Shown here in pieces: positions 44,149 through 47,579 of a DNA stretch of 64,000 bases. This DNA is from Geitlerinema sp. PCC 7407 (GTDB taxonomy: Bacteria > Cyanobacteriota > Cyanobacteriia > PCC-7407). Location: the NCBI RefSeq assembly GCF_000317045.1, contig NC_019703.1:4472934-4536933 (forward strand), in the 5' to 3' direction. The notes under the pieces are model-generated. The model worked only from the letters and a program-made list of their open reading frames with translations. It did not search any database and was not told where the DNA came from. Position numbers and translations under genes: made by a program. Within the stretch, counting starts at the first letter, position 1, and each line of letters starts with the position of its first letter.

Positions 44149-45723
44149 ATGGGCCGACAGCCCCTGGGAGGGGCGATCGCGGCGGGCCATCCCCTCACGG
44201 CCGAAGCAGGCCTCGAAATGCTGCGTCAGGGCGGCAATGCCTTTGATGCGGCGGCGGCGGCCGTGCTGACTTCCTGGGTGGTGGAGTCCCCCCTGACTTC
44301 GCCCGCGGGCGGCGGCTTTTTGCTGGCCTACACAGCCGATCGGCAGGCCCAGCTGTTTGACTTCTTTACCCAGACGCCCCGCCAGCGGCGATCGCCCCCT
44401 CTGGACTTCTATCCGGTGGGGGTAAATTTTGGGGGCGCGGTCCAGGAATTCCACATTGGTTTAGCTTCGATGGCGGTGCCCGGCGCCCTCAAAGGGATTC
44501 ACGCGGTGCATCAGCGGCTGGGACGCCTGCCCTTTGCAGCGGTGGCTGAGCCGGCCATTCACTACGCCGAGGGGGGCGTGGCCCTGAATGATTTCCAGGC
44601 CTACTGCCTCCAGATTTTGGCGCCCATTTTGACAGCGTCAACCGAGGGGCGGGCCATCTACGCGCCCCAGGGCAGCTTGGCCCAGGCCGGGGACGTGCTG
44701 CACTTCCGTGACTTAGCCGAGACCCTGCGGGGCTGGGCAAACCACGGGATCGAGGGGCTGTATCAAGGGGAAATGGCCCATCAGCTGGCAGCGGACTGTC
44801 GCCAGGGCGGCGGCCACCTGAGCCTGGAGGACCTGACGCGCTACCAAGTTCAGGCGCGATCGCCCCTCCAGATTCGCTATCGGGGCCATACGCTGTTGAC
44901 CAACCCGCCCCCCAGCTCCGGCGGCGCGCTGATTGCCTTTGCCTTGGCGCTGCTGGAAACCCAGGATCTCGGCGCGATGGGCTTTGGCAGCGATCGCCAC
45001 CTGGCCACCCTGGCCACGGCCATGGCCCTGACCAACGCCGCCCGCAAGGACGGCTACGACGACCACATCCACAGCGCGGACATTGCCCAGCGATTTCTCG
45101 GGCTAGACCACGTGCAGCCTTACCAAGCCGAGTTGACCAACGCCGTGAACCGGTGGGGCAGCACCACCCACATCAGCGTCCTCGACGCCGAAGGCAACGC
45201 CGCCAGCGTCACCACCTCCAACGGCGAAGGCTCGGGCTACCTGATTCCTGGCACCGGCATCATGGTCAACAACATGCTGGGCGAAGAAGACCTCAATCCC
45301 GCTGGGTTCCACCGCTGGGCCGAAAATGTGCGCATGTCGTCCATGATGGCGCCCACCCTGGTGCTGCGGGAGGGCCGCCCCGAAGTCGTGCTGGGCTCCG
45401 GCGGCTCCAACCGCATCCGCACGGCGATCTTGCAGGTGATTTCCAACATTTTGGACTTTGGCATGGCGGCCCCGGCGGCGGTGAGCAGTCCCCGCATCCA
45501 CTGGGAGCAGGGGCGCCTCAGCCTTGAGCCCGGGTTTGACCCCGGGGCGGTGGAGCGCCTAGCCCGCTACAGACCGGCGATCGCCCAGGAGCAGACCCAG
45601 TGGCAAGCGCCCAGCATGTTCTTTGGCGGGGTCCATACGGTGATGGCCCAAGCGGGCGATCGCTTTGCGGGGGCGGGCGATGAGCGGCGCAGCGGCGTCT
45701 TCCTCGCAGATTCGTTTAGCTAG
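44149..45723 (+). CDS. ggt: Gamma-glutamyltranspeptidase family protein
   Basis: This N-terminal-nucleophile hydrolase cleaves gamma-glutamyl bonds such as those of glutathione after autoprocessing. The 524-residue protein starts with the GGNAFDAAAAAV block. The processing/catalytic threonine is in GSTTHISVLD, and GTGIMVNNMLGEED plus the C-terminal GSGGSNRIRTAIL are conserved. No signal peptide is visible, as for many cyanobacterial homologues. The stop codon directly abuts the convergent small gene stop (zero gap). It is probably cotranscribed with aspC. Confidence 0.92.
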   Translation: MGRQPLGGAIAAGHPLTAEAGLEMLRQGGNAFDAAAAAVLTSWVVESPLTSPAGGGFLLAYTADRQAQLFDFFTQTPRQRRSPPLDFYPVGVNFGGAVQEFHIGLASMAVPGALKGIHAVHQRLGRLPFAAVAEPAIHYAEGGVALNDFQAYCLQILAPILTASTEGRAIYAPQGSLAQAGDVLHFRDLAETLRGWANHGIEGLYQGEMAHQLAADCRQGGGHLSLEDLTRYQVQARSPLQIRYRGHTLLTNPPPSSGGALIAFALALLETQDLGAMGFGSDRHLATLATAMALTNAARKDGYDDHIHSADIAQRFLGLDHVQPYQAELTNAVNRWGSTTHISVLDAEGNAASVTTSNGEGSGYLIPGTGIMVNNMLGEEDLNPAGFHRWAENVRMSSMMAPTLVLREGRPEVVLGSGGSNRIRTAILQVISNILDFGMAAPAAVSSPRIHWEQGRLSLEPGFDPGAVERLARYRPAIAQEQTQWQAPSMFFGGVHTVMAQAGDRFAGAGDERRSGVFLADSFS

Positions 45724-45933: not shown

Positions 45934-45996
45934 GATGGAATTCCTCCAGAGGTCTACTGTCTTCAGGCTAAAGGCCCGGAGCGTCACCAACCTCTG
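45934..45996 (-). promoter_or_regulatory. Structured 5' leader of the small gene
   Basis: CAGAGGT (45947-45953) and ACCTCTG (45990-45996) are perfectly complementary and enclose a smaller GGC/GCC hairpin. On the minus strand the 3' arm abuts the GGAGG ribosome-binding site of the gene at 45933, so folding could limit initiation. No ligand class is recognised. Confidence 0.4.
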
Positions 45997-46027
45997 TCTT
46001 GAAGGGGTTTTGGCTCTCTGCTCAGCG

Positions 46028-46150
46028 TTGACATCCTCACCGGGGTAAACCCACGGTGATTCCCAAACCTCACGACTTGGGTTTCTGCTTCCTAGCACCC
46101 GCCTTCCGGGACTTGCTCCCTTCTGGTCTTACAGTCGCTCCACAGACTGA
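46028..46150 (-). ncRNA. Predicted omegaRNA / right end of the tnpB element
   Basis: A hairpin CCCAA/TTGGG (46062-46066 and 46077-46081) spans the tnpB stop. The terminal hairpin is TCACCG-GGG-TAAA-CCC-a-CGGTGA (46037-46059). On the minus strand AGGATGTCAA follows, ending at 46028, which resembles the right cleavage tetramer TCAA of IS200/IS605 elements. By analogy with TnpB systems the RNA covers the 3' part of the gene and ends in a guide from the flanking DNA. The 5' limit is approximate. Confidence 0.6.
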
Positions 46151-47242
46151 CACGGTGTGTCCCACCGCCAAGATGTTTTTTGCTGCGTTCACATCCCGAT
46201 CATGGTGACTGCCACACTTCGGACAATCCCACTCTCGAATGCTCAGCGGCAATCGCTCTACGACATGGCCGCAGCTCCCGCAGCGCTTAGAGCTGGGAAA
46301 CCAGCGATCGATCTTCACCAACTCTCGCCCATACCACAGGGCCGTGTACTCCAGTTGGCGAATCAGCTCACCCCAACCCGCATCGCTAATGGCGCGGGAG
46401 AGCTTGGGGTTCTTGACCATGTTCTTCACCGCCAGCGTCTCGACCGCGATCGTTTGGTTTTCACGAATCAGTCGAGTCGTCAGCTTGTGAAGATGGTCTT
46501 CTCGGGAATTAGAAATCTGCTGGTGAATCCGCGATACCTTGAGTCGAGCTTTGTCTCGATTGCGAGAGCCCTTTTGCTTGCGACTCAGGGACTTTTGGGC
46601 TCTGCGAAGTCGTCGGTAATGCCGGTCAAAGTGCTTGGGATTGGCGACCTTTTCCCCGTCACTCAGGGCGACCAAGCTGGTAATCCCAGCGTCCACCCCA
46701 ATCGACTGGTTAGAAGCCTCCAGTGTGAGATTCCGAGGATCGTCAAAGCGGAGGCTGATGTACCACTGACCAGACGGGTTCAGTCGTACAGTCACCGTGG
46801 AGGGCTCAGCCCCCTCGGGAATCCGCCTGGACCATCGAATGTTCAATGGTTCTGGGCTTTTAGCCAGAAACACCTGACCCTGTTTCCATTTGAAAGCAGA
46901 CTTTGTGAACTCTGCACTGCCACCATTGCGCTTCTTCTTGAAGTTCGGATAGTTTGTCCGACCGGCAAAGAAGTTAGTGAAAGCCGTTTGCAGATGTCTC
47001 AGTCCCTGCTGAAGAGGAACGCTGCTTACTTCATTGAGAAACTGGAGGTCTTCTTGCTTTTTCCACTCCGTCAGCTTCGAAGAGGTCTCGGCATAGCCGA
47101 TTCTCTCTTGTCGCTCATACCAAGCTTCAGTCCGTTCTGCCAGGGCTCGGTTGTAAACTAGCCGAACACAGCCCAGTGTCCGACGCAAGAGATTTTCTTG
47201 CTCGAAGGTGGGATAGAACCGGTAGCTGAAGGCTTTTTCCAT
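46070..47242 (-). CDS. tnpB: TnpB RNA-guided transposon endonuclease
   Basis: The 390-residue protein is full length. The N-terminal helix-turn-helix region is YRFYPTFEQENLLRRTLG. The split RuvC nuclease has D184 (IGVDAGITSL), E268 (AVETLAVKNM) and D350 (HDRDVNAAKN). The zinc ribbon is C321/C324 and C340/C343. No frameshift or lost catalytic residue is seen, so it is predicted active as an omegaRNA-guided DNA nuclease that protects or spreads its element. No tnpA is adjacent. Its codon use seems less HIP1-rich than that of the neighbours. A structured RNA block lies upstream as well as downstream. Confidence 0.95.
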   Translation of the reverse strand: MEKAFSYRFYPTFEQENLLRRTLGCVRLVYNRALAERTEAWYERQERIGYAETSSKLTEWKKQEDLQFLNEVSSVPLQQGLRHLQTAFTNFFAGRTNYPNFKKKRNGGSAEFTKSAFKWKQGQVFLAKSPEPLNIRWSRRIPEGAEPSTVTVRLNPSGQWYISLRFDDPRNLTLEASNQSIGVDAGITSLVALSDGEKVANPKHFDRHYRRLRRAQKSLSRKQKGSRNRDKARLKVSRIHQQISNSREDHLHKLTTRLIRENQTIAVETLAVKNMVKNPKLSRAISDAGWGELIRQLEYTALWYGRELVKIDRWFPSSKRCGSCGHVVERLPLSIREWDCPKCGSHHDRDVNAAKNILAVGHTVSVCGATVRPEGSKSRKAGARKQKPKS

Positions 47243-47335
47243 GTCTCACGTTCTAACATTTCTACTGTGAAAACCACAGACTCTAATGGCAATTTCGAGG
47301 GCATCGAGCCCTGCTCAATTGCCGCTCCTATCCCT

Positions 47336-47514
47336 CCCCGCCCTGAAACGGCGGGGTCTCTCGGAGGCTTCTGATGATACCTCCCAGGAAGTTCTACGCG
47401 TTTTTTGGAATGCCTGAGAAGCCCGCACCTCTCTTGGATTGACGCTCATCCAGCTAGCGCTGCGCGTATCGCTGGAGATTCCCCGTTCCCAGACACGTAG
47501 GTGTGGGAGCGTCA
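47336..47514 (-). ncRNA. Second omegaRNA-like / solo right-end structure upstream of tnpB
   Basis: In minus-strand order: a three-way junction closed by TGACGCTC/GAGCGTCA (47440-47447 with 47507-47514), with arms CCAGC/GCTGG (47450-47454, 47471-47475) and ACAC/GTGT (47493-47504). Then come GAGA/TCTC (47416-47433), GGAGG/CCTCC (47363-47384) and a terminal CCCCGCC/GGCGGGG hairpin (47336-47356). AGGGATAGG follows, like the AGGATGTCAA of the nearby tnpB end but degenerate. It looks like the 3' RNA and right end of another TnpB element whose gene is gone. Confidence 0.5.
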
Positions 47515-47579
47515 CCCTGCGCAGCTAGTCAAAGCGCTCTAGGCGACGCTCTCTCGTGGCCCCGACGGCCAAAAGCAGT

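Follow-up and report, generated by a model that had tools for sequence, protein, structure and literature searches.

The block considered here, minus-strand positions 47514 to 47336 of the window (the whole stretch of 64,000 nt from Geitlerinema sp. PCC 7407, contig NC_019703.1, that was analysed), lies next to an intact tnpB gene and had been read as an orphan omegaRNA. Sequences of three IS200/IS605-type families, hereafter X, Y and Z, meet at the locus, and the features, in window coordinates, are the following.

46009..46027, plus strand: putative further coding remnant of Y across Z (...GSLLS-DDTSQEV...), from the joined flanks compared with the Y copy L054; tentative because it is short
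46028..46070, minus strand: right end of Z, GGGAATC-[ACCGTGGGTTTACCCCGGT]-GAGGATGTCAA, the 3' part of Z's own omegaRNA region
46028..47373, minus strand: Z, a tnpB-only IS200/IS605-type element of 1346 bp inserted after TCAT in the Y remnant
46070..47242, minus strand: tnpB, intact, 390 aa, with the Pfam domains OrfB_IS605, Cas12f1-like_TNB and HTH_OrfB_IS605
47336..47356, minus strand: CCCCGCC-GTTTCAG-GGCGGGG, the left-end hairpin of Z (element positions 18-38), shared with the other Z copies and with a solo left end (L004)
47374..47377, minus strand: TCAT target of Z, which stands before the left tip of every Z copy and of L004
47374..47438, plus strand: 5' part of the Y right end, with the last TnpB codons (DDTSQEVLRVFWNA and stop) and the 5' arm of the terminal hairpin, assigned by homology to L054/L008 and L007
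47439..47496, minus strand: mini-X, a terminal-only element of exactly 58 nt, GTGTCTGGGAACGGGGAATC-[hairpin]-GAGCGTCAA, inserted in the loop of the Y hairpin
47440..47447, minus strand: tip of mini-X, GAGCGTCA, one arm of an 8-bp closing stem
47449..47477, minus strand: terminal hairpin of mini-X and of the X right end, seen in 19 X right ends (15 distinct)
47497..47500, minus strand: CTAC target of mini-X, part of the Y hairpin; CTACC precedes the left tip of the X elements L148, L151-L153 and L157
47497..47515, plus strand: 3' part of the Y right end, with the 3' arm of the hairpin and the tip GGGAGCGTCAC, identical in L054, L007 and the Y relatives
47507..47514, plus strand: tip of Y, GAGCGTCA, the other arm of the closing stem

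When the genome was searched with the block, it returned separate sets of partial matches with differing limits, and each family was delimited by its own copies. The genome carries two more Z copies (97% and 93%); their match to the window runs from 47377, taking in the target, to 46027/8, where it breaks off. Among the relatives in other genomes of the class, many have element position 1346 as their exact end, and several begin at positions 1-9. Since the copies stop at the same limits and the relatives share the tips, Z corresponds to 46028-47373, and its tip at 46028 is common to all copies. The gene it carries is intact, as had been proposed, and typical: beside its Pfam domains, the protein scores 381.6 bits against the NCBIfam model guided_TnpB, whose cut-off is 100. 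The right end of Z has the order GAAT, hairpin, TCAA, like the right end of IS608, and the left-end hairpin is preceded by GAGA, a probable guide for the target TCAT. The hairpin CCCCGCC-GTTTCAG-GGCGGGG that ends the fold of the block is indeed followed by AGGGAT on the minus strand, as the original prediction described, but it does not belong to an orphan block: it lies inside Z, whose left tip is at 47373, and is the left end of that element. This hairpin resembles the right-end tip AGGATGTCAA only superficially. Elsewhere in the same genome a solo Z left end, 75 bp long and 89% identical, without tnpB, follows TCAT (L004 1501-1575, genome positions ~3288740-3288814), and one Z copy (L033, 3779389-3780555), ~2.5 kb from an intact copy (L032), has an in-frame TAA in its tnpB.

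The second family, Y, is represented by a remnant. Window positions 47373-47429 (57 nt) are 88% identical to a full copy (L054/L008) and to a solo copy (L007) in the same genome; in L054 the matching segment closes another tnpB, a complete one, at its 3' end, and the Y piece is opposite in strand to the tnpB of the window. An uninterrupted Y would be expected to read ...CAGCGATGATACC... across the Z site; with 46028-47373 taken out, the joined flanks read GSLLSDDTSQEVLRVFWNA and stop, against GSITDVTSKEVLRILRNA and stop in L054, a resemblance that supports the insertion of Z inside the Y tail. Forty-five loci of cyanobacterial Y relatives were fetched with the L054 protein, and the right-end tails were read in about 40 of them; they end in ...EVLRILRNA and stop, followed by GAGAAGCC-hairpin-GGAGCGTCAC or variants. 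In 30 relatives the terminal hairpin has 95.4% of its cells paired, against 31-48% when the alignment is slid, and both sides have changed in 10 of the 13 pairs, which is strong covariation. The remnant thus combines homology to the tail of a full tnpB with a covarying terminal hairpin, both marks of an IS200/IS605 right end, and by these comparisons a Y right end is present on the plus strand (47374-47438 and 47497-47515). By eye, the Y TnpB (L054 1306-2673) apparently lacks the CxxC zinc-finger cysteines of the Z TnpB, and it seems to have the D and E motifs of a RuvC-like domain.

The two parts of the Y right end are separated by mini-X. The segment 47439-47496 has matches in 14 other genomes, among 390 of the class searched, and at three other places in its own genome. 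In full-length X, an IS605-type element that carries a divergent tnpA as well as a tnpB of ~417 aa, the matching segment forms the 3' end; the hits in other genomes sit at the end of open reading frames finishing in ...SSQDSVNGESPAIREVLAG and stop. Copies next to TnpB right ends, whose search had been suggested, were found: X right ends lie directly behind tnpB in other cyanobacteria. The terminal hairpin has 95.7% of its cells paired across the 19 X right ends (15 distinct), with compensatory AU/UG/CG at one pair. Mini-X is thus homologous to the sequence that, in full-length elements, ends tnpB or follows it directly on the 3' side, and has the conserved subterminal hairpin, the guide GAAT and the cleavage site TCAA of a right end. 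In its own genome no X tnpB closer than 48% was found, and the right end of that 48% relative differs. In this respect the original prediction of a solo right end of a lost element was partly correct: mini-X is on the minus strand, is homologous to right ends behind tnpB and has no full copy here, but the block is not one right end, mini-X being inside a plus-strand Y right end that is joined to the left end of Z.

Six mini-X copies are known from three genera, the five others being again exactly 58 nt long (L005, L006 and L009 in this genome; L060 and L139 in two other genera), and the flanks of the six are unrelated. They are preceded by CTAC in four of six copies and by CCAC or CGAC in the other two. 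When the 58 nt are taken out and CTAC is kept, Y reads CCCGCACCTCTC-TTG-GAG-T-AGGTGTGGG, a 12-bp hairpin with one bulge that matches the Y terminal hairpin elsewhere; this restored hairpin indicates that mini-X was inserted, on the minus strand, in the loop of the Y hairpin. Short, without transposase, with fixed ends and several copies in unrelated flanks, and inserted at the target motif of its parent (CTAC in 4/6; CTACC at X left ends), mini-X has the properties of a PATE, or terminal-only element, and appears to be a new, cyanobacterial IS605 derivative of this terminal-only kind, 58 nt long. It contains no second hairpin recognisable as a left end, and any guide read from past its tip at 47439 would be TCCAAGAGAGGTGCGG.

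Other X copies show further variation. In L148, L152 and L153 the tnpB frame crosses the terminal hairpin of the right end (...DSVNGESPAIREVLAG and stop); in this family coding sequence and omegaRNA-type structure overlap, reaching within a few bases of the element tip. In other genomes L149, L150, L151 and L154 have lost internal sequence or survive as solo right ends, of roughly 108-136 nt, and solo right ends seem common in these families.

The predicted fold can be read against these boundaries. The minimum free energy structure of the minus strand from 47514 to 47336 is a multibranch closed by TGACGCTC/GAGCGTCA and followed by more hairpins, so that the three-way junction with its 8-bp stem does exist as a computed fold; it is not one unit, since copies and relatives of the separate elements split the block and its energy of -76.2 kcal/mol (z = -1.80; the shuffles average -67.9) was equalled in 8 of 200 shuffles. 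The fold is unremarkable, and one structured unit beyond chance was not confirmed. Rfam covariance models gave no match over the block, at gathering threshold or even at E<=1, and a scan of the block found no promoter-like or terminator-like site. No homolog of the block as a unit exists among the 390 genomes of the class (0/390), only its X part being matched elsewhere, and the number of other loci with both arms of the closing stem is 0. Two helices of the reported fold join sequences of different insertions, the penultimate hairpin being the Y tail paired with the Z left end across the insertion junction. The only natural hairpins within that fold are the X hairpin and the Z left-end hairpin. 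As for stem covariation, which had also been put forward as a check, conserved pairing backs only the separate hairpins of X (with compensatory change at one pair) and Y, and not the 8-bp closing stem.

The closing stem itself has a simple origin. Both families X and Y end in GAGCGTCA, and here their tips face each other on opposite strands, hence the perfect pairing. In all pattern-located X right-end hits outside the locus, TGACGCTC is absent from the 120 upstream bases (where available), so that other X right ends have no partner for their tip. The stem proposed as an RNA structure is, on the evidence of these sequences, a fortuitous pairing of two foreign right-end tips, whose back-to-back placement made a perfect-looking helix. 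A further GAGCGTCA (GGAGCGTCACC, plus strand) occurs at 45979-45986, ~40 bp past the right tip of Z, and may be a scrap of a right end or chance.

We are confident that in the block sequences of the IS200/IS605 superfamily are nested in three layers, and that it is not an omegaRNA gene. A Y-type tnpB element was once present at the locus on the plus strand, of which only the right end is left. Two minus-strand insertions followed: the 58-nt mini-X, an X right-end tip with its left side trimmed, entered the loop of the Y hairpin behind CTAC, and the tnpB-only Z entered the Y tail behind TCAT. Both are younger than Y, and the sequence does not fix their mutual order. From other strains no exact empty site for either insertion was found at the locus, the family having one genome. 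The ends in the block would have served as recognition sites for a TnpA transposase of the Y1 family; five TnpA genes are present elsewhere in the genome (near positions 371408, 1216828, 2972351, 3665944 and 3730389), and their proteins could mobilise Z and mini-X in trans. Most likely the block itself now does nothing.

It has been demonstrated for IS608 that a 4-nt guide 5' of each hairpin reads the cleavage site, with GAAT/TCAA at the right end and AAAG/TTAC at the left end (PMC5934647). At the right ends of X and Z, GAAT precedes the hairpin and the tip carries TCAA, and the right end of Y has GAAG and TCAC; at the left ends we find GAGA with target TCAT in Z and AGTG with CTAC in X. The motifs of X, Y and Z fit the IS608 guide/cleavage scheme, the left-end readings being putative. 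X and Z resemble IS608 and ISDra2 in the subterminal hairpin that follows a 4-nt guide (PMC5934647), and the likeness extends to the target motif left of the left end and to the reRNA/omegaRNA region at the 3' end of tnpB (PMC5934647, PMC8612924). Unlike in those elements, the ends of three families are stacked here, and Y and mini-X are without a complete gene.

The main alternative for mini-X is a passive relic, a truncated right end of a full-length X instead of a 58-nt mobile unit. Decay is common in X, as shown by the longer solo right ends and the internally deleted copies in other genomes (L149-L151, L154), and deletion of the core after insertion of a longer copy, as proposed for Haloquadratum (PMC3119063), is possible. 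We nevertheless consider a relic unlikely: the six copies share the 58-nt length in unrelated flanks, and truncations that arose separately would not all have the same end point; moreover CTAC belongs to the Y hairpin, so that the left tip of mini-X is an insertion junction.

Far less probable is the view that the block is the solo omegaRNA of a lost element, on the minus strand, from which the neighbouring TnpB would still be guided in trans. In its favour, mini-X is a true right-end tip on the minus strand, its family has no full copy here, and both it and Z are laid out as GGGAATC, hairpin and ...GTCAA. Against this, the ISDra2 reRNA is ~150 nt long, spanning the 3' end of tnpB and the right end (PMC8612924), and only 58 nt are left here; the last hairpin is the Z left end, and Y is on the other strand; identity between the X and Z TnpB proteins is only ~31%, along part of the sequence; the scan gave nothing promoter-like, and the fold is not beyond chance. 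By analogy with ISDra2, the X and Y right ends of full-length elements would be the DNA of a TnpB reRNA/omegaRNA, but at this locus X is truncated to 58 nt and Y, opposite in strand to the window tnpB, is interrupted twice (at 47373/4 and 47438/47497), short of a ~150-nt scaffold running from the 3' end of tnpB through the right end. That the block supplies the Z TnpB with a guide in trans therefore seems unlikely: no complete omegaRNA scaffold is left, the X and Z TnpBs are only ~31% identical, and nothing ties the block to the Z TnpB, which has its own, different 3' right end. It is still more doubtful that mini-X, as a mobile right-end-only unit carrying the 3' part of an omegaRNA, would, if transcribed, take a guide from each new flank for one of the many TnpBs of the genome. 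A regulatory RNA or attenuator for tnpB or for the upstream rhodanese gene, suggested by stable hairpins between two minus-strand genes, is equally improbable given the composite origin, the lack of an Rfam match and of terminator-like or promoter-like sites, and the fact that none of the other genomes among the 390 of the class conserves the block as a unit.

Within the nested reading, the block is mostly ordinary and only mini-X is mildly interesting. The nearest parallels are the terminal-only, 52-bp IS605 derivatives of Haloquadratum, which occur in several strain-specific copies and are frequently nested (PMC3119063). Like the 52-bp PATEs of HqIRS46 and ISHwa23 in Haloquadratum walsbyi, mini-X is terminal-only, measures ~50-60 bp and has one palindrome; it also has several copies, no transposase, a 4-5 nt target before it and nesting with IS605 elements (PMC3119063). 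Mini-X differs in being cyanobacterial and 58 nt long, and the likeness drawn here is one of architecture; a sequence relation to the archaeal elements, or an origin by repeat-mediated core deletion as in Haloquadratum (PMC3119063), would be conjectural for mini-X. A PATE-like IS605 form of Halanaerobium hydrogeniformans is similarly an ends-only derivative that keeps part of the tnpB 3' end and the right end, but it is 271 nt long with a left-end hairpin, whereas mini-X has 58 nt and one hairpin (PMC7290912). With mini-X, the very short mobile repeats derived from IS605 and reported from haloarchaea would gain a cyanobacterial case of 58 nt. Its insertion falls precisely within the loop of the end hairpin of another element, and the restored hairpin is the evidence for this. 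At the same time, the locus illustrates a trap in the search for guide RNAs near tnpB, because nested transposon ends on opposite strands with identical tips can imitate a structured RNA.

Elsewhere in the window, ARAGORN calls a tRNA-Ala at 45144-45240, within a region that a 524-aa open reading frame (44149-45723) covers on the opposite strand; the call is not confirmed by Rfam and is probably false.
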